From contig NZ_BNAI01000003.1 in the NCBI RefSeq assembly GCF_014653215.1, forward strand, positions 248,001 through 312,000: a stretch of 64,000 nt of DNA. Reading direction: 5' to 3'. Each line of letters opens with the position of its first letter. Positions within the stretch are counted from its first letter, which is position 1. This stretch comes from Pseudolysinimonas yzui (lineage in GTDB: Bacteria > Actinomycetota > Actinomycetes > Actinomycetales > Microbacteriaceae). Position numbers and translations under genes: made by a program. The notes under the pieces were generated by a model. It did not search any database, had not been told where the DNA came from, and worked only from the letters and a program-made list of their open reading frames with translations. This document shows positions 15,701 through 22,767 of the stretch, one piece after another.

Positions 15701-16252
15701 GCCGCCGCGCACCGCGAACTCGCCGCGTCGGGTGACGAGGTCGACTCGGGCGTAGGCCAGCTCGGCGAGCTTCAGGGACAGGCCGGGGAGGTCGTAACCG
15801 CGCCCGCCGCGGGTGAGTTCGAGCGACGGGACGTCGGCGAGGCCGGGCACGACGGGCTGCAACGCGGCACGCACGCTGGCGACGACGACGAGGTGGCCAC
15901 GACGGGCGGCGTCCCACCGCGCGATCTCGCGCAGGGTGCGCAGGCGTCGTCCCACCGTCTCGGCGCTCGGGCTCAGGCGCTCGTGCGGCAGGGTCTCCCA
16001 CGCCGGGAAGTCGAGCACCGTCGCGTCGGGCAGGTAGGCGTGCAGCGACCCGGTGATCGCCTCGGCCTCACGGCTCGTCGCGGTGACGGCGAGCACCGCC
16101 TGCGCCGGTCCCCGGGCGTCGAGCAGCGCGGCGATGACCGGCACACGCAGCCCCTCGACGAGGGAGAAGTCGGCGTCGGTTCCGCTCAGTTTCAGGGCGG
16201 TCTGGAGCGCGCGGGCATGCGCCAACCTCGGAATCACGGCATGCAGACCCAC
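12743..16252 (-). CDS. mfd: Transcription-repair coupling factor
   Basis: Superfamily 2 DNA translocase that removes RNA polymerase stalled at lesions and recruits UvrA. 1169 residues, the usual length. An N-terminal UvrB-like region (about 1-350), the CarD/RNA-polymerase interaction domain (about 490-570, PLQLKAGDYVVHETHGIGRF), helicase motifs with Walker A GDVGYGKTE (about 645) and DEEQ (about 750), motif VI QIRGRVGRGRERAY, and a C-terminal TRCF domain are all present. The start is GTG at 16252; a TAAGCT hexamer seven bases upstream suggests a leaderless message. The large plus-strand frames through this gene are shadows. Confidence 0.97.
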   Translation of the reverse strand: MGLHAVIPRLAHARALQTALKLSGTDADFSLVEGLRVPVIAALLDARGPAQAVLAVTATSREAEAITGSLHAYLPDATVLDFPAWETLPHERLSPSAETVGRRLRTLREIARWDAARRGHLVVVASVRAALQPVVPGLADVPSLELTRGGRGYDLPGLSLKLAELAYARVDLVTRRGEFAVRGGILDVFPPDAEHPVRADFFGDEIEQLRFFSVADQRSLPDDLTSVDLLPSRELLLTDAVRQRAREMEREFPSLEGMLAKIAEGIPVEGMESLAPALVGELVPVTDLLPEDAAVAILSPERVATRALSLAETNREFLEAAWSAATAGAKAPISLDRGDFLTVSQLRAAARPRTWWTFSPFDSDADEVVRIPGTVIPSFAGQVEGAVDYVAGLVRDGWNVTVTAAGAGLVERAGDVLAEAGVAPTLEQAAIEAGFALPDEKIAVLSEAEFYGRAASVDARGTRRLASRRKNVVDPLQLKAGDYVVHETHGIGRFVELIQREVASGERTARGPLGTQHARVVREYLVLEYAPSKRGGAPDRLSVPTDQLDLLSRYVGGEAPALSKMGGSDWAAAKGKARKAVRDIAVELVKLYSARMASVGHAFPPDTPWQRELEEAFAFAETPDQLITIDDVKADMERPIPMDRLISGDVGYGKTEIAVRAAFKAVQDGKQVAMLVPTTLLVRQHMETFAERFAGFPVHLRALSRFQTDKESKETIEGLADGSVDVVIGTHRLLSDGIRFKDLGLVVIDEEQRFGVEHKDALKKLKTNVDILAMSATPIPRTLEMAVTGIREMSTLATPPEDRHPILTFVGPYNEKQVAAAIRRELLREGQVFFVHNRVSSINRVAAQLADLVPEARIAVAHGQLSENVLEQVIVDFWERKFDVLVSTTIIETGIDIANANTLIIDAADKYGLSQLHQIRGRVGRGRERAYAYFLYDDAKPLGEVAQDRLETIAANTELGSGMQVALKDLEIRGAGNLLGGEQSGHIAGVGFDLYLRMIGEAVATFRGDVAEGQTELRLELPVDARIPEEYLESERLRLEAYQKLSTAAAPASTDDAIDAVAEELADRYGELPDAVKNLVAISRLRRAAIKAGLSEVVAVGGNLRIAPAELPDSKQLRLKRMYPGARVFAAAKALSIPLPQGTDADLIAWVDGVLTALFAPPLPTPPAG

Positions 16253-16259
16253 TCGTTCG

Positions 16260-16265
16260 AGCTTA
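16260..16265 (-). promoter_or_regulatory. Predicted -10 box of a leaderless transcript (mfd)
   Basis: Minus-strand TAAGCT ends seven bases before the GTG start at 16252, with no Shine-Dalgarno in the gap. Confidence 0.4.
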
Positions 16266-16277
16266 GGCGGGCGAGGA

Positions 16278-19200
16278 TCACATCGCCGCGAGTGCCGCGA
16301 TCTCAGCACCGCTCAGCACGCGGCCGTAGAAGCGCACCTCGTCGATCGCGCCGTTCACATAGTCGGTGCGGACGCCGTTCCACTTGGCGGCGCCGACGAT
16401 GGTGGGCCCGAAGGCGGTCCACGAGGTCGGTGCCGTGGCCGTCCCCTGCGACACGCCGTTGACGTAGAGCTGCATCGTGCCCGCCGTCTTGTTGTAAACA
16501 CCGGCGACGTGATACCAGGTGCCCGTCACAAGCGTCGCCGCACCGTCGATGGTGACGAACGCGCTCGAGGTCGAGTCGCCGCCGGTCTGCGCGAAGCGGA
16601 ACTTGCCCGCACCGTTGGTTCCGATGAAGAAGGGGCTGACATTGGTGCCGTCGATGGAAGCCAGCGTCTGGTAGCCCGCGGTGTTGTTGAACTTGACCCA
16701 GGCGGCGACGGTGTAGCTCTCGCTCGTCTCGATCACGCGCTGGTTGCCCGACGTCAGCGCCCAGCTGTTGGTCGCGCCCGATAGGTTCAGCGCGGACCCC
16801 AGCCCGGATTTGCTGACCGCCCACGTGGCGCCCGCTTGCAGGGTGAGCGAGTTGAGGTTGCCCGAACTGTCGGCGGCCGTGGCACCGAAGCCTTCATTGA
16901 AGGCCCAGATGGCGCCGGGCGAACGGGCAACGTTCGCGTTCGTCGCAATGTGCTGGTTGCCGACGTTGTCGGTGACGACGTAGCGGTACATGTAGCACGT
17001 GCCGCTCCCGCTCACCGTGTCGGTGAAGGGCGAGGTCGGGCTGGTGCCGCCGGACACGGTCGCGAAGCTGCCGAAGGTGCCGCAGGTTCCGCCGTTCTGA
17101 GTTGCCGTCGCGCGTTGCAGCAATCGGCTCGCAATGCCGGAACCGCTCTCGGTTCCCGTCGTGAACGAGACCGAGATCGTGGTGCCGCTGTAGATGCCGT
17201 TGAGGTAGCTGACCGTGCCCGCGGCCGGCGCCGTGTTGTCGGCCACGAACGTCAGGTTCGACGCGGTGGATGCCGTGCCGGCGTTGTTCGTCGCCGTCAC
17301 CGTACGCGTGCCCGGAGCCGCCGGGGCGCCACTCCAGGAGTAGGTGTTCACGCCGAGAGCGCCGGGCGTGGACGTCCAGTTCGTGCCCGCCGCCTGGTAT
17401 GCCCAGCTCGCGATGCCCGACTGAGCGTCAGTCGAGGTGCCGGTGACGACGAACGAGCCCGATGCCGCACCGGAGTTGTAGTAGACGGTGGAGCCCGAGC
17501 CGCTCCAGTAGGAGTTGACCGGCGACGAGATCGCGAGGGTCGGCGTCGACGGGGCGGTGTCGTCGACCTTGATGTCGCCGCTCGTGTAGGTCGTCGTGTT
17601 GCCGAGCGTGTCCGAGACCGTGTACTGGTACCGGTAGCAAGCGCCCGTAGTGACGGTGTCGGCCCTCGGCGACGTCGGGTCGGTCCCACCGGTCACCAGC
17701 GCGTAGCTGCCGAAGGTGCCACACGTTCCGGTGGTCAGCGTCGCTGTGGCGCGGGTCAGCGTGCGGCCGGTGGTCAAGAGTCCGCTCGAGTCGGTGCCCG
17801 CGCTGAACCCGATGCTGAGGTTGGGCGACGTCGAGTAGCGCGACCCGGTGCCGACGAGTCCGGTCGCGTCGACCGAGCCGCCGGTCGGGCCGGTCGTGTC
17901 GGATGCACCGGACGTACCCAGCTGGTAATGGTTCGTCACCGTCCCCGCGGGGAGCACGCTCGTGTAGACCGCGACCTCGTCGAGGGTTCCCGCGAAGTAG
18001 TTGGCCCCGAAACCCAGCCGGCCGAAGTTGAGCGTCGACTGCGCGTTGAGCAATCCAGTGTTTCCCGTCGTCGTGCCGACGAGCGCACCGTCCACATAGA
18101 GCGCGAGCGCGCCCGTCGACTGGGTGCGGGTGAAGACGACGTGGTGCCACCGGTTGTCGTTGTAGGTGGCGGGCGACGCGACGCTGATCTCGGGCAGCCC
18201 GACGCCCGCGACGATCTTGCCCGCGCACATCGAGACCCCGAAGTCCTGCGCCCCACCGGCGAGGTCGGCGTCGACCAGTCCGGCGCCGTGCCACCACTGG
18301 GTGCACGGGGTCTGCCCGTAGACCTCGCCGACGAAGTTCTGCGAGGACTTGACCCAGAACTCGATCGAGAAGTCGGCGGCGATCTGTCGAGCCGCGGTCG
18401 CGTAGTCGTTGATCCCGTCGAACTGCACCGCGGTGTCGAGGTCGTTGGGCAGAGCGCCGGTCACCCCCGGTGTCGGAGCGTTGAAGAAGGTGCCGTCGTT
18501 GTTGGCGACGCCCTTGTCATCCATGACCCCGGCGGTGCTGGCATCGCCGAGCCGCCACCGGCTGAGCTGCCCGGCCGTGTCGACCACCGCTCCCCGATAG
18601 TCGACCTTGGCGACACTCGCGCTCGTCGTGATCGATTGATTGCCGACGGCATCCGTCACCACGTAGCGGTAGATGTAACACATCGCGTTCACGACCTGGC
18701 TGTCGACGTACGGTGACGTCGGCGAGGTGGACCCGATATCGATGAAGTTCGAGTACGTGCTGCCGCAGGTGCCGCTGTTGTTGGCCGCCTGCGAACGCTG
18801 CAACTGTCGAGTAGCCACGCCGGCGCCGGCGTCCGTGCCGGTCGTGAAGGTCAGCGTCACCGACTTGCCGGGCTGGTTGCCGTCAAGGTAGCTGAGCGAG
18901 CCGAGGGGCGGTGCGGTCGTGTCGTTGGTGAAGGTCAGGTTGGTGACCGCTGTGTTGCCGATCACATCACGCCCGGTGACGGCGACCGTGGGGGTGCTGG
19001 CCGTCGCCGCGCCCCACGCAAACGGGTTGGAGACGTACGGCCCGCCCGCCGGAGCGGAGACGGTCGACGGGGTGTGGGTCCACCCAGTCGTCGTGCCACC
19101 CAGTGCACCGGTCTGGCTCGAGGCCGGTCCCGTGCCGCCGTCGGTGACGGTGTTGGTCACCGTGAACGATCCCACGGTGGATCCGCGGTAGTAGACGGTC

Positions 19201-19739
19201 GAACCGACGAGAGCCGCCCCGCCGCTGACGTTGCTCAGCGAGAGGGCATTGACCGGCGGAGTCGTATCGACGGTGACGACGGCGCTCATGGCGCTCTCGG
19301 TGCCGCGCCAGTTCGTGGCGAACACCGGCGTCACCGTGTATCGCCAGGTACCCGCGGGAACCGAGCTCTCGATGCAGCTCGTCGCCGTCACCACACCTGT
19401 GCACGCGCTGAGGATCGTCTGCAGAGCGAGCGTCGACGAGTTGTACCGGCGGATCTCGTATCCGGTCACCGCCGCCCCGTTGGCCAGGGTCGACGCCGAC
19501 CAGCTCACGGTGACATTCGCGCCGCTCGCGGTCGCGGTCGGCGTCGCACCGGCGCTCACCGAGGTCGCGAGGGCCGAGCCGGCACTCCCCGCCGTGACGG
19601 CGACGAGCCAGTACGACCACGCAGCGCCGCCGACGAGCACGAGCAGGGCGGCGGCGCACATCATGAGGAGCGCGCGCTTCCACCGGGCCGGCGCAGAGAG
19701 GTGCCGGGCCCGGGGTGCGGAGAGCGCGGCTGTCGTCAT
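16278..19739 (-). CDS. Large secreted LamG/FN3 repeat protein
   Basis: Surface or secreted adhesin-like protein, 1153 residues, rich in Ser, Thr and Gly. A basic N-terminus and one hydrophobic segment (about 22-48) end with AAWSYW, the same aromatic box seen in the small proteins encoded upstream. Then come an FN3-like domain (about 55-145), alternating Ig-like repeats, and two LamG (concanavalin-A-like) domains (about 393-593 and 945-1150). One repeat type occurs three times, each with GTCG.....F and a C-terminal Y.Y.V(T/S)D.(V/L)GN signature and a Cys pair. No sortase signal or C-terminal anchor is visible, so it is either held by its N-terminal helix or released. Its ATG overlaps the preceding gene by four bases. 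Ligand unknown; LamG domains often bind glycans. Confidence 0.82.
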   Translation of the reverse strand: MTTAALSAPRARHLSAPARWKRALLMMCAAALLVLVGGAAWSYWLVAVTAGSAGSALATSVSAGATPTATASGANVTVSWSASTLANGAAVTGYEIRRYNSSTLALQTILSACTGVVTATSCIESSVPAGTWRYTVTPVFATNWRGTESAMSAVVTVDTTPPVNALSLSNVSGGAALVGSTVYYRGSTVGSFTVTNTVTDGGTGPASSQTGALGGTTTGWTHTPSTVSAPAGGPYVSNPFAWGAATASTPTVAVTGRDVIGNTAVTNLTFTNDTTAPPLGSLSYLDGNQPGKSVTLTFTTGTDAGAGVATRQLQRSQAANNSGTCGSTYSNFIDIGSTSPTSPYVDSQVVNAMCYIYRYVVTDAVGNQSITTSASVAKVDYRGAVVDTAGQLSRWRLGDASTAGVMDDKGVANNDGTFFNAPTPGVTGALPNDLDTAVQFDGINDYATAARQIAADFSIEFWVKSSQNFVGEVYGQTPCTQWWHGAGLVDADLAGGAQDFGVSMCAGKIVAGVGLPEISVASPATYNDNRWHHVVFTRTQSTGALALYVDGALVGTTTGNTGLLNAQSTLNFGRLGFGANYFAGTLDEVAVYTSVLPAGTVTNHYQLGTSGASDTTGPTGGSVDATGLVGTGSRYSTSPNLSIGFSAGTDSSGLLTTGRTLTRATATLTTGTCGTFGSYALVTGGTDPTSPRADTVTTGACYRYQYTVSDTLGNTTTYTSGDIKVDDTAPSTPTLAISSPVNSYWSGSGSTVYYNSGAASGSFVVTGTSTDAQSGIASWAYQAAGTNWTSTPGALGVNTYSWSGAPAAPGTRTVTATNNAGTASTASNLTFVADNTAPAAGTVSYLNGIYSGTTISVSFTTGTESGSGIASRLLQRATATQNGGTCGTFGSFATVSGGTSPTSPFTDTVSGSGTCYMYRYVVTDNVGNQHIATNANVARSPGAIWAFNEGFGATAADSSGNLNSLTLQAGATWAVSKSGLGSALNLSGATNSWALTSGNQRVIETSESYTVAAWVKFNNTAGYQTLASIDGTNVSPFFIGTNGAGKFRFAQTGGDSTSSAFVTIDGAATLVTGTWYHVAGVYNKTAGTMQLYVNGVSQGTATAPTSWTAFGPTIVGAAKWNGVRTDYVNGAIDEVRFYGRVLSGAEIAALAAM

Positions 19740-20233
19740 GCGCTCACCAGATAGACCGTGAACGTGGCGCCTTGACAGGCGTTGGCGGCGGATGTCGACA
19801 TCCCGATCGCGTTCGGCAGGGTGATGCCCAGCGAGCCGTTGACCAGGCCCACCCGGGCCGGGATCGTCCACCCGCTGCCGCCGTTGGTCTGCGTCGAGAA
19901 GCTCAGGACGGCGACGTTGCAGCTGCTGTGGCCGGCGTCGACGGCGAAGCCTCCCGTGCCGCTGGCCGTGTCGAGGCTGAGCGAGTTGATGCGCACCGCG
20001 GTGTCGTTCGTGTTGGTCGCCGTCAGGACGACGTGGGCGGTGGCGCCGGGGCGAAGGTTGGCCGGCGGCGTGCCGACCGTGAGGGTGACGGGCACGACGT
20101 CACCGGTCGCGCTGGTGCCGGTGCCGTTCCCGGTGCCGCCCCAGTAGGCGAGGGCGATGCCTCCCACCGGCAGCACGACAAGTGCGAACGCGGCGCAGGC
20201 ACCGAGGATCGCGAGACGGCGACGGCGGATCAT
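19736..20233 (-). CDS. Small secreted AYW-box protein (paralogue 2)
   Basis: A 165-residue exported protein. A basic start and hydrophobic segment (about 8-29) end ALAYW, followed by a Gly/Thr-rich stretch (GGTGNGTGTSATGD). The rest looks like one beta-sandwich: TATNTNDTAVRINSLSLD (about 72-89) and a C-terminal strand ACQGATFTVYL. Two Cys remain in the mature part (in SSCNVA and NACQGA), probably a disulfide. The same plan is seen in the proteins encoded at 20230 and 20846. It resembles the signal-peptide style of SipW-dependent (TasA/camelysin-like) proteins, but no dedicated signal peptidase is in the window. Coupled by 4-base overlaps on both sides. Confidence 0.72.
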   Translation of the reverse strand: MIRRRRLAILGACAAFALVVLPVGGIALAYWGGTGNGTGTSATGDVVPVTLTVGTPPANLRPGATAHVVLTATNTNDTAVRINSLSLDTASGTGGFAVDAGHSSCNVAVLSFSTQTNGGSGWTIPARVGLVNGSLGITLPNAIGMSTSAANACQGATFTVYLVSA

Positions 20234-20748
20234 TCGACGATCCTCCCGACTGCCGAATAGGCGAGGGCGAACGAGGCGGCCTTGCAGCCGTCCTGATTGC
20301 GCGCGGTGTCGAGCATCAGCACTTGCGGCCAGTCGTCACTCGGAACGCCGAGTTCTGCGAGGGACGTCGTCGTCCCCGCGGGGACGACGAGTTCGCCGGC
20401 TCCCGCGATCTGTTTCACCGCGAAGTCCTCGACGCTGCACGGAAGCGACTCCGTGGCGTTCGGCGCGTCCACCCCGTCGACCTCCACGCGAAGTTCGGTC
20501 ACCACGAGGTCGGTGTCCAGTGGATTCGAGATGCTGAGGTTCAGGGGGGCAGACCCTCCGGGGAAGAACGGTTCAGCCAGATCGCCGCTGATCGAGAACG
20601 AAGGCGAGGGCCGATCGGCGACGGCGTCTGCGTTCCCACCGAACGAGAACGAGCGCGTCACGATCGCCCACGTCAGTGCGGCCCCGATGACGAGGCCGAC
20701 GACGAGCATCCCGATGGCGATCAGCCAGCGGCGTCGGGGGGTGACCAT
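20230..20748 (-). CDS. Small membrane-tethered paralogue (paralogue 3)
   Basis: A 172-residue protein with a hydrophobic segment at about 8-30 and no obvious cleavage site, so it is probably anchored. The outside part has a short linker, then the same fold signature as its neighbours: LSISNPLDTDLVVTELRVEV (about 70-88), a Cys in SLPCSVEDF, and the C-terminal motif NQDGCKAASFALAY. This motif is nearly identical to that of the first gene of the operon (NQDGCKNATVNLVY). It overlaps the downstream AYW-box gene by four bases, and a hairpin lies upstream between it and the first gene. Confidence 0.7.
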   Translation of the reverse strand: MVTPRRRWLIAIGMLVVGLVIGAALTWAIVTRSFSFGGNADAVADRPSPSFSISGDLAEPFFPGGSAPLNLSISNPLDTDLVVTELRVEVDGVDAPNATESLPCSVEDFAVKQIAGAGELVVPAGTTTSLAELGVPSDDWPQVLMLDTARNQDGCKAASFALAYSAVGRIVE

Positions 20749-20759
20749 GTGCTGCCTCC

Positions 20760-20786
20760 CTTCGCCCCTCGAAACTCAAGGCGAAG
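20760..20786. terminator. Second hairpin in the surface operon
   Basis: CTTCGCC (20760-20766) pairs with GGCGAAG (20780-20786) across 13 bases. It lies between the coupled downstream genes and the stronger hairpin at 20801-20830. No U-tract, so its role is uncertain. Confidence 0.35.
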
Positions 20787-20800
20787 CGGTACGCGGCTGA

Positions 20801-20830
20801 GCGGTGGAGTGACGACCGTCACCCCACCGC
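20801..20830. terminator. Strong intra-operon hairpin, possible partial terminator or mRNA stabiliser
   Basis: GCGGTGGAGTGAC (20801-20813) and GTCACCCCACCGC (20818-20830) form a 13-bp stem with one mismatch and a 4-base loop. It starts 16 bases after the stop of the first small surface-protein gene. It may reduce transcription of the three genes beyond it, so that the first product is made in excess, or protect the first message from decay (both inference). Confidence 0.55.
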
Positions 20831-20845
20831 TTCAGCGACCGACGA

Positions 20846-21334
20846 TCAGTTGGACGTGTAGACCAGGTTGACCGTGGCGTTCTTGCAGCCGTCCTGGTTC
20901 TCGGCTGCCTCGTTCACGAACGCGATGGTGGCTCCCGACCAGGAGCCCACGCCGCTGCCCGAGGGCACGTTCGCGTTGACGGTCATCGTCGCGTTGGCGA
21001 TGACGTAGTCGTCGGCTTCGCAACCCACGGCCGGCTCGCCCAGCGCGTCGACAACGCTGTCGATGCTGACGGTGACCGACGCGACGAAGACCGACCCGTC
21101 GTTCGGGTTGTTGAAGTTGCCGCTCAGCGTCTGCGGAGCCACCCCCGGCTCGAGATCCGTGAGGACGCTCGTCTGAACGACGGTGATCGGCGTGTTGGTG
21201 CCGGTGTCAGCCGACCCGGTACCCGACCCGGAGTTGGTCCAGTACGCGTAGGCGGCTCCAGCGCCACCCAGAACGATCGCGGTGACGATGCCGGCGGCGA
21301 GAAGGCGCTTCTTGTTCCCCTTGTTGGCGCTCAT
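20846..21334 (-). CDS. Small secreted AYW-box protein (paralogue 1, first gene of operon)
   Basis: A 162-residue exported protein. Its start (MSANKGNKKR) is basic, a hydrophobic segment spans about 10-30, and AYAYW follows with a likely cleavage after AYA; a SGSGTGSADTGTNTP linker comes next. The mature part has SGNFNNPNDGSVFVASVTVS (about 70-89), one Cys in VGCEADDYV and one in the C-terminal motif NQDGCKNATVNLVY, suggesting a disulfide-closed beta-sandwich. AGAGGTAG precedes the ATG at a good distance. The hairpin after this gene separates it from the rest of the operon and it may be the abundant subunit. Function unknown; TasA/camelysin-like matrix protein is the nearest idea. Confidence 0.72.
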   Translation of the reverse strand: MSANKGNKKRLLAAGIVTAIVLGGAGAAYAYWTNSGSGTGSADTGTNTPITVVQTSVLTDLEPGVAPQTLSGNFNNPNDGSVFVASVTVSIDSVVDALGEPAVGCEADDYVIANATMTVNANVPSGSGVGSWSGATIAFVNEAAENQDGCKNATVNLVYTSN

Positions 21335-21463
21335 TGCAGACTACCTCTTCAGTTACAGGGGAAGCCTGCGGCCCAGCTCGCGCGAGCCCCCCCGAGTCGC
21401 GCGACCGTTCTATGAGCTGAAGCTAATCATCGGCGTTCAGGCTCCACCAGTGCCAGAAGTAGG

Positions 21464-21479
21464 GACAGACCGATCTGTC
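21464..21479. terminator. Short hairpin at the end of pth
   Basis: GACAGA (21464-21469) pairs with TCTGTC (21474-21479) across a 4-base loop. It overlaps the last base of the pth stop codon and could end that operon. There is no U-tract. Confidence 0.35.
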
Positions 21480-22090
21480 TATCCCTTGTCCCCCGTCGGC
21501 TCGGGGGCCCCACGCGGCGCGTGCCAGCGTTGCTGAGCGGCGAGGAGGCCGTCGGTGAGGATCTGCTCGGTCGCGTCGGCGGCATCCGAGATGAGACTCG
21601 GCAGCGCCTCACGCTCCGCCTTCGCGAACGGCGACAGCACGTAGTCTGCGGGATCCTGACGGCCCGGCGGGCGACCGATCCCGACCCGTACGCGCACGAA
21701 ATCGGGCCCGGCGACGGCGATGATGTCGCGAACGCCGTTGTGGCCGCCCGGGCCGCCCCCGGTCTTCAGGCGCACGGTGTCGAACGGCAGGTCGAGCTCA
21801 TCGTGGACGACGATGAGCTTCGAGGCGTCGAGGGAGTAGAACTTCAACAGCGCCGCGACGGGTCGACCCGACACGTTCATGAAGGTCGACGGGACGGCCA
21901 GTGCGATGCGGTCTCCGCCGGGGCGCACTCGAGCCTCCCCGACGGTCGCGCCCGCCTTGTGGACCTTGAGCGTCGTGCCGAGGCGCGAGGCCAGCTCGGC
22001 CACGACCATCTGGCCGACGTTGTGACGATGGCCGGCGTAGCCGGGCCCGGGATTCCCGAGCCCGACCACGAGCCAGCGATCGTCGGCCAT
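21479..22090 (-). CDS. pth: Peptidyl-tRNA hydrolase
   Basis: Releases tRNA from peptidyl-tRNA that has dropped off the ribosome. 203 residues, slightly long at the C-terminus. The family motifs are GLGNPGPGYAGHRHNVG (about residues 10-26, with the catalytic His23 or neighbouring His and Asn), STFMNVSGRPV (about 68-78) and the signature VHDELDLPFDTVRLKTGGGPGGHNG (about 94-118), with the catalytic Asp. It follows rplY by 11 bases, the conserved rplY-pth pair of Actinobacteria. Confidence 0.97.
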   Translation of the reverse strand: MADDRWLVVGLGNPGPGYAGHRHNVGQMVVAELASRLGTTLKVHKAGATVGEARVRPGGDRIALAVPSTFMNVSGRPVAALLKFYSLDASKLIVVHDELDLPFDTVRLKTGGGPGGHNGVRDIIAVAGPDFVRVRVGIGRPPGRQDPADYVLSPFAKAEREALPSLISDAADATEQILTDGLLAAQQRWHAPRGAPEPTGDKG

Positions 22091-22101
22091 GCCGGGTGGC
22101 G

Positions 22102-22767
22102 TTACTCGGCGGCCTCGGCGGCCGCGGCGTCGCCCTCGGCCGACTCGGCGGCTTCACCCTCCGCGGCCTCGCCTTCGGCGGCGACCTCTTCGGCCTCGCC
22201 GAGGTCGACCTGGGCCTCGCCCGTGATGCCGACGATCAGCACCTCGGGGTCGGTGACCAGCGTCGCGCCGGCAGGCAGCTTGACGTCCTTCGCCAGGATG
22301 TGGCTGCCCTCGGTGAGGCCCTCGATGCTGACCGTGATGCTCTCGGGGATGTGGGTCGCCTCGACCTCGAGCGAGATCGTGGTCGAGTCGAGGTTGACGC
22401 TCGTCTCGGGAGCCGACTCGCCTTCGAGGTGCACCGGCACGTCGACCGTGACCTTCTCGCCGGCACGCACGACGATGAGGTCGAGGTGCTCGATGACCTG
22501 GTGCACCGGGTCCTTCTGCACATCCTTGACGAGCGCGAGCTGGCTCTTGCCGCCGATCTGCAGGTCGAGCACCTGGTTCGCCTTGCGGATGATGAGCGCG
22601 GTCTCGTGACCCGGCAGAGCCACGTGCTGCGGCTCGGTTCCGTGACCGTAGATCACGGCCGGGATCTTGCCGGCGGCGCGCAGCCGGCGGGCGAAGCCCT
22701 TACCGAATTCGGTGCGCACCTCGACGGTGAGTTTGTTGTCCTGTGCAGGCTTGGTGTTGTCAGCCAC
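22102..22767 (-). CDS. rplY: 50S ribosomal protein L25/Ctc
   Basis: Binds 5S rRNA in the large ribosomal subunit. 221 residues of the long Ctc form: an N-terminal L25 domain (about 1-95, with RTEFGKGFARRLRAAGKIPAV), a beta-rich C-terminal domain (about 100-185), and an acidic Glu/Ala repeat tail (about 188-221) that is low complexity and typical of actinobacterial members. The start is GTG at 22767, with GGAG about 9 bases upstream. First gene of the rplY-pth unit. Confidence 0.96.
   Translation of the reverse strand: MADNTKPAQDNKLTVEVRTEFGKGFARRLRAAGKIPAVIYGHGTEPQHVALPGHETALIIRKANQVLDLQIGGKSQLALVKDVQKDPVHQVIEHLDLIVVRAGEKVTVDVPVHLEGESAPETSVNLDSTTISLEVEATHIPESITVSIEGLTEGSHILAKDVKLPAGATLVTDPEVLIVGITGEAQVDLGEAEEVAAEGEAAEGEAAESAEGDAAAAEAAE

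Follow-up and report, generated by a model that had tools for sequence, protein, structure and literature searches.

A four-gene actinobacterial set proposed to build a surface fibre or scaffold carrying an interchangeable binding protein

Gene order and sequence features of the four-gene set

The window analysed here, a 64,000-nucleotide stretch of a Microbacteriaceae-type genome, contains four minus-strand genes between pth and mfd, three of them encoding small proteins (g1, g2 and g3) and the last a large LamG protein (Table 1). The original prediction had described all four genes as coupled or close, and this was borne out by 4-nt overlaps (ATGA) at g2/g3 and at g3/LamG and by a g1-g2 spacing of 97 nt. 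We placed the start of the LamG protein at the ATG at 19739, not at 19871, the 5' limit of the longest open reading frame. The GC content of the module (66-71%) matched that of the neighbouring genes, and recent transfer, as judged from base composition, was therefore unsupported.

Table 1 Features of the four-gene set
Feature	Coordinates	Strand	Description
g1	20846..21334	(-)	162 aa; proposed major subunit
g2	20230..20748	(-)	172 aa; proposed membrane-anchored base
g3	19736..20233	(-)	165 aa; proposed adaptor or second subunit
LamG protein	16278..19739	(-)	1153 aa; proposed displayed adhesin
GC-rich hairpin	20800..20831	(-)	~15 nt past the g1 stop, AGCGGTGGGGTGACGGTCGTCACTCCACCGCT; no T-tract

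The 100-nt gap after g1 gave a hairpin folding z of -4.87, and a strong hairpin was found 3' of g1 in 55% of loci compared with 11% for control genes (p 1.5e-18). A consensus scan of 16000-22200 found neither T-tract intrinsic terminators nor sigma-70-like promoters. The hairpin is proposed to act as a stabiliser or partial terminator that would lower g2-g3-LamG expression relative to g1, and it fits g1 being more abundant; because of the hairpin and of its first position, g1 is probably the abundant subunit.

The hydrophobic segment of g1 closes with GGAGAAYAYW, for which we infer a cut site between GGAGAAYA and YW, leaving a Gly/Thr-rich mature N-terminus followed by a predicted Ig-like beta-sandwich. 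Its Asn motif is NNPNDG, and it carries C105, C150 and NQDGCKNATVNLVY. The corresponding features of g2 are SNPLDTD, C104, C155 and NQDGCKAASFALAY, with an ordinary N-terminal TM helix from which the aromatic box is absent, while g3 combines the box GGIALAYW with TNTNDT, two Cys and ACQGATFTVYL. When g1 was used as a query against its own genome, the only matches were g2 (E 8.8e-8) and g3 (E 1.5e-5), and profile-profile comparison gave probabilities of 99.35% for g1-g2 and 99.32% for g1-g3. Judged by sequence, the three small proteins represent separate lineages of a single family with two conserved Cys, and their similarity is beyond chance. The three small paralogues with an Asn-rich motif and two Cys that had been predicted were thereby recovered, with profile comparisons above 99.3% and all features located. 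No Pfam or NCBIfam model covered the family at cut-off, and a sequence search of solved structures returned no match below E 0.15.

The LamG protein carries the box GGAAWSYW, two Laminin_G_3 stretches and FN3/Ig-like repeats (read by eye), and inspection found no C-terminal TM or LPxTG. It shares large size, repeated stalk domains and binding domains with the fibrillar adhesins, or FA-like proteins (PMC9210967). In contrast to fibrillar adhesins, it has no recognised cell-wall anchor, and the linked small proteins are candidates for anchoring it; in the fibrillar adhesin study itself, an anchor was found in only about half of the positive training proteins (PMC9210967).

Predicted folds and comparison with known systems

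AF2 predicted confident Ig-like beta-sandwiches for g1, with residues ~50-162 forming a block of pLDDT 88-98, and for the g2 domain, with pLDDT mostly >90. Unrelated folds, which would have spoken against a common structure, were not what the predictions gave, since g1 and g2 have the same kind of predicted sandwich and g3 is related to them by sequence. Foldseek matches were weak: for g1 they included the donor-strand proteins Caf1M (E 0.028) and the TasA fibre, the latter at rank 3 (E 0.051 for g1 and 0.094 for g2) with unrelated Ig-like proteins alongside, and WxLIP was among the top weak matches for both g1 and g2. VIA-align found no match with Z of at least 8 for either protein. Mean conservation in g1 was 0.81 for the box and 0.69 for the stretch 33-46, both above every predicted strand region, and despite this conservation both had low AF2 confidence, as expected for a strand that becomes ordered only on polymerisation. 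Signal peptidase recognition could alternatively account for the conserved g1 N-terminus.

The likeness to TasA/camelysin that had been suggested earlier held for the style of the signal box, whereas no homology of the folded domain was detected. Against PF12389 (camelysin/TasA), g1 scored 17.3 bits (E 0.0045), below the 22.5 cut-off, and one of 32 g1-family members matched at E 0.01, with none in the g2 or g3 sets. Alignment of g1 by hhalign to seven PF12389-type proteins from the same bacterial family reached 95.5%, over 54 columns, only with the signal included, and gave 5.9% for mature g1, a value from a small set with which remote homology is possible. We did not class g1-g3 as camelysins or TasA because the Pfam cut-off was missed and the mature domain had no profile match.

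What is common to these proteins and the TasA/TapA/SipW and CalY/camelysin filaments is the use of small beta-sandwich subunits that are exported and carry an aromatic box of the SipW type, together with several related subunits, one of them proposed as major, and a shared mature N-terminus. The operon here differs in having no SipW, in including a giant adhesin and a paralogue with a TM anchor, and in its two conserved Cys. The TasA donor strand comprises residues 28-38, which immediately follow the signal peptide (PMC9674648), and the TapA N-terminus is like that of TasA (AFHDI vs AFNDI; PMC10151520). The donor-strand residues of TasA are spaced hydrophobics (F29, I32, F39), whereas g1 is Gly/Thr-rich after YW. 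Archaeal threads or bundling pili and chaperone-usher pili likewise share the Ig-like/jelly-roll sandwich, the N-terminal donor strand being here only proposed. Unlike chaperone-usher pili, the set has no usher or periplasmic chaperone, and its weak fold matches are shared with unrelated Ig-like proteins. The WxL/WxLIP complexes of Firmicutes are also multi-gene surface sets of small beta-sandwich and larger exported proteins, with a weak fold match; a Pfam search found no WxL or DUF916-type sequence match in the proteins studied here.

The export box, SipW and recurrence of the set

An aromatic box after a hydrophobic segment occurred in three of the 61 called genes in the window, namely g1, g3 and LamG, which are the two small proteins and the large one for which it had been foreseen. 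It had also been stated correctly that the window has no SipW or sortase; a sortase is encoded elsewhere in the genome, and a genome search found two SipW-type peptidases, neither in the operon. Genes close to SipW carried the same A-[YFL]-W box in 17 of 20 SipW loci, in a by-eye, after-the-fact count whose SipW hits were taken from the top of the list and which is softer than a per-gene test. The first per-gene test, with one regular expression, found the box in 18/83 genes near SipW and 11/78 far from it, with no clear difference; in this test some boxed genes lay 2-2.5 kb off, in the gap between the bins or beyond them, the counts were diluted by mis-called frames, and the pattern missed boxes in L155.

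TIGR04089 (exp_by_SipW_III) and TIGR04088 (cognate_SipW) proteins of Actinobacteria have a GG...SLAYW-type box in common with our proteins. The SipW-linked boxed proteins L045 and L049, which match TIGR04089, adjoin SipW, whereas g1-g3 do not and match neither model: searches with TIGR04088/04089/04090 gave no match in g1, g2, g3 or LamG (E up to 1) and none in the 32 members of the g1 alignment (E up to 0.01). SipW was present in 25/31 g1 carriers and 237/369 non-carriers (p 0.08, all hits) and in 20/26 strong carriers (p 0.29); it was nearby in 3/80 named-genome loci, and several carriers, some with near-complete genomes, had no detectable SipW. Co-occurrence thus gave SipW dependence no significant support. 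The SipW link originally drawn is half supported: the box resembles those on SipW-adjacent genes, yet the association with SipW presence is not significant.

Relatives of g1 were found in 31/400 genomes of the same bacterial family, covering 19/85 genera, the five weakest of the 31 carriers resembling SipW-operon proteins, and family relatives are present in scores of Actinomycetota genomes. For named genomes, 80 of 150 loci were kept; the commonest arrangement was g1-g2-g3 (25 loci), and there were 16 with g1-g2 and 24 with other sets of at least two copies. Some modules are limited to g1 plus g2 or to g1 plus g3, and some loci have several g1 copies. The gene order recurred in other genera, contrary to what a lack of co-occurrence in related genomes would predict, and the flanking genes differed from genus to genus, with the set at unrelated chromosomal sites in many genera and families. 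In a sister type, an element like a sorting signal is present at the N-terminus of the anchored copy. A programmed frameshift joining the giant protein and the anchored copy in this sister type was set aside because the gene overlap varies between loci.

At other loci, g1-g2-g3 is followed by a large Ig/FN3 protein with a differing tip. Domain searches of ten large proteins gave LamG, ice-binding (4), ricin-B, RCC1 and propeller tips; since these examples were selected for variety, the frequencies of tip types are no estimates. The large protein was boxed in 53/73 loci, compared with 13/526 other large genes (OR 105, Fisher test using only the last of three versions of the box pattern), and p-values throughout are optimistic because the loci are phylogenetically non-independent. 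No box was detected on the large neighbour in the remaining 20/73 loci.

Proposed assembly and rival explanations

The set most likely builds a surface fibre or scaffold carrying an interchangeable binding protein, and our best reading, by analogy, is a hetero-oligomeric surface scaffold with a variable adhesin that would work like TasA/TapA. The more specific model, a surface-display assembly in which donor strands link a short fibre or scaffold presenting the LamG adhesin, we regard as evenly poised. Cleavage of g1, g3 and the LamG protein between A and YW, by either a SipW-type signal peptidase or ordinary SPase I, would give all three mature proteins an aromatic, Gly/Thr-rich N-terminus of one kind, and this N-terminus would enter the sandwich of the next subunit as a donor strand. 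Both g1 and g3 would donate and accept strands, the LamG protein, at the tip end, would donate only, and g2, which lacks the box and is anchored in the membrane, would accept only and form the base. The cell would thus display on its surface a short fibre or scaffold, whose LamG adhesin, with no wall anchor of its own, may bind carbohydrate or matrix. The predicted roles of an abundant subunit, two accessory ones and a large adhesin gain partial support, the hairpin after g1, the uncleaved g2 anchor and the variable binding domains of the large protein being consistent with them.

A small stoichiometric g1-g2-g3 complex at the membrane or wall might instead hold the adhesin in a WxL/WxLIP-like manner without any fibre, a reading that deserves to be taken seriously though we consider it rather unlikely. 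It would agree with the TM anchor of g2, with an adhesin that lacks its own wall-sorting signal, with WxLIP among the top weak Foldseek matches and with modules reduced to g1 and g2 or g1 and g3. However, the hairpin suggests g1 in excess, a simple complex needs no strongly conserved mature g1 N-terminus, and the WxLIP matches were no stronger than others. That g1-g3 are not structural parts but serve the giant protein as chaperones in export or as assembly factors, like TapA and CapP in Bacillus filament assembly, appears improbable: the linkage with a giant secreted protein is conserved and there are precedents in TapA, a chaperone by strand donation (PMC10151520), and CapP (PMC13082335), but two of the three carry a box-type, cleavable-looking export signal and would not stay in the membrane, a single chaperone role would not call for three paralogues that each have conserved features of their own, and some loci have several g1 copies. 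Most doubtful is that these are independent secreted neighbours with no joint structure, whose aromatic box is a lineage-typical signal-peptide style. The box does occur on unrelated SipW-adjacent proteins and on 13/526 other large genes, yet the genes stay together across many genera and families although their chromosomal positions are unrelated, they overlap by ATGA in the window, and the three lineages retain their order.

For the fibre or scaffold reading, we tentatively suggest that these sets form an unnamed actinobacterial class of surface fibres, with polarity set by the capacity to donate or accept strands and with exchangeable tips for glycans, ice and other ligands. These results indicate a widespread, unannotated surface system of Actinomycetota and a candidate way of holding giant adhesins without a wall anchor on the cell, and they offer a second Gram-positive lineage for testing donor-strand filament assembly. 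The tips are exchangeable and at several loci include ice-binding domains, which suggests that the system is a modular device for display.

Organization of the four-gene operon

The four genes are flanked by pth/rplY and mfd (flanking genes named by eye) in a 3.08-Mb genome of 98% completeness, in which the window corresponds to C3:248001-312000, and ATGA overlaps join g2 to g3 and g3 to the LamG gene. The longest mfd ORF, starting from a GTG at 16309, runs into the end of the LamG gene, and by eye the real mfd start is probably further in. Checking the encoded proteins confirmed the features named in the original prediction. Three hydrophobic segments end in the aromatic boxes AYAYW, ALAYW and AAWSYW; the small proteins g1, g2 and g3 have two Cys apiece and among them the strand motifs NPND, NPLD and TNTND; and g1 shares its NQDGCK C-terminus with g2.

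Locations of the operon and of SipW-related features
Feature	Location	Strand	Remark
g1	20846-21334	minus	
g2	20230-20748	minus	
g3	19736-20233	minus	
LamG protein gene	16278-19739	minus	
Start of longest mfd ORF and end of LamG gene	16231-16309		
SipW-type peptidase	C1:519967		above TIGR02228 cut-off; outside window
SipW-type peptidase with C-terminal LamG fusion	C1:196848		just under TIGR02228 cut-off; outside window
SipW-like signal peptidase-LamG fusion	L009:7892-9232		own genome, C1 ~196 kb; adjoins camelysin-like 202-aa gene
TasA-like gene, SipW-type peptidase, LPxTG-like small protein and large exported protein in a row	L010:8255-11900		own genome, C1 ~520 kb; ahead of proS-like gene
SipW-type peptidase genes and g1-g2-g3	L127:6869-9703		Nocardioides halotolerans

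A hairpin 3' of the g1 stop codon in the window gave a z of -4.87 against 200 dinucleotide shuffles. Counting hairpins with a score of at least 30 within 75 nt of the stop codon across 80 loci, we found them after 55% of g1 genes versus 7% of g2 and 11% of control genes (Fisher p = 1.5e-18, which is optimistic since the loci are related), with stem sequences differing from lineage to lineage. The hairpin lacks a T-tract and so could act in stabilisation or in partial termination, and it supports the prediction that g1 would be in excess of g2-g3-LamG.

A small-protein family conserved as a unit

Searching the own genome with g1 returned only g2 and g3, and a tree of homologues from the family genomes resolved g1-like, g2-like and g3-like groups, whose profiles matched one another at 99.3% in profile comparison. 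Cys105 and Cys150 of g1 were invariant in 32 sequences. Relatives of g1 were found in 31 of 400 family genomes (19 of 85 genera), although the five weakest of these matches look like proteins of SipW operons and not like true g1, and four of the five have a SipW-type gene nearby; a stricter profile found relatives in 12/396 genomes of a phylum-wide sample. Scanning a species-genome collection yielded 150 relatives, and the best 80 loci, which were kept, came from Arthrobacter, Nocardioides, Kribbella, Cryobacterium, Promicromonospora, Amycolatopsis, Kutzneria, Solirubrobacterales and others, as well as a small number of Chloroflexi bins, possibly the result of mis-binning. Their copy order was g1-g2-g3 at 25 loci, g1-g2 at 16, g1 alone at 15 and other sets at 24, several loci being cut by contig ends. 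By eye, the flanks varied with genus (for instance aldolase and glyoxalase; clpP and aldo-keto reductase; rpsA; pth/mfd), indicating that the gene set moves as a unit.

A sister type occurred at L041, L042, L043, L065, L066, L068-L072, L120, L126 and L137, where the last gene encodes C-x(1-4)-L-x-x-TG near the N-terminus. After this motif come a TM segment and a stretch rich in Arg, then another hydrophobic segment and a domain like that of g1. This N-terminal element, seen in 17 ORFs (some from the same genome taken twice), looks by its sequence like a sorting signal of the sortase kind, but placed at the wrong end of the protein; our literature search found no paper on an N-terminal sorting signal.

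Relation to SipW, TasA and sortase systems

The genome encodes two SipW-type peptidases in all, both outside the window. The module's box (A-[YFL]-W) also lay on a gene near SipW at 17 of 20 SipW loci from the family (counted by eye), and TIGR04089 members include two SipW-linked proteins bearing a GG...SLAYW box, marking the box as a SipW-type signal. It lines up with WA|AF of the TasA precursor. SipW presence was nevertheless only weakly linked to the module: it was detected in 25/31 module carriers versus 237/369 non-carriers (p = 0.08), or in 20/26 when only strong carriers were counted (p = 0.29). The two systems are most plainly linked in N. halotolerans, where a pair of SipW-type peptidase genes lies immediately upstream of g1-g2-g3. 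SipW was not found at E 1e-5 in carriers G198, G239, G284 and G288 (97-100% complete), where ordinary SPase I may be sufficient or a SipW-type enzyme may have been missed.

The originally proposed SipW/TasA likeness holds for the signal but, so far, not for the domain. No Pfam/NCBIfam family covers the g1/g2/g3 group; camelysin gave one match, below the Pfam cut-off, among 32 g1-type members, and neither the g2 nor the g3 set gave any; and mature g1 did not match in a profile comparison with seven PF12389-type proteins of the bacterial family. We therefore did not class the group as TasA/camelysin. Nor does the operon look like a sortase-built pilus, since its four proteins have no LPxTG; one sortase is encoded elsewhere in the genome. 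A few full-text searches of open-licence papers found no literature on the operon, which is weak evidence that none exists.

A candidate polar scaffold with exchangeable tips

AF2 confidently predicted a seven-strand sandwich for g1 residues ~50-162, and a sandwich preceded by a TM helix for g2. The best Foldseek matches were weak, Caf1M, WxLIP, TasA fibre and FaeE among them, and VIA-align gave only generic Ig-like matches. The stretch after the box, g1 33-46, was poorly ordered in the AF2 monomer, and its conservation (0.69) exceeded that of any strand region, being surpassed only by the box (0.81) and QDGCK (0.76). The corresponding stretch of TasA, residues 28-38, is its donor strand (PMC9674648), and the N-terminus of TapA is nearly identical to that of TasA (PMC10151520). 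By analogy with these, g1 and g3 would both donate and accept a strand, the LamG protein would only donate and g2 would only accept. The outcome would be a scaffold that is polar and based on the membrane, carrying the adhesin at its far end.

Large genes (>250 codons) just downstream of the set carried the box at 53/73 loci versus 13/526 other large genes of the same loci. In the window and in ten further examples picked for variety, the tips were LamG (window, L116), Ice_binding (PF11999; L099, L103, L137, L144), ricin-B lectin (L083), RCC1 (L075) or beta-propeller (L087), and the L091 and L127 proteins had Ig-like repeats alone. The four Ice_binding proteins are a possible ice-adhesion version of the module. 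The original reading of a multi-component surface structure is supported in outline. A display device would be expected to take this form, pairing small proteins that are conserved as a set with a tip that can be exchanged.
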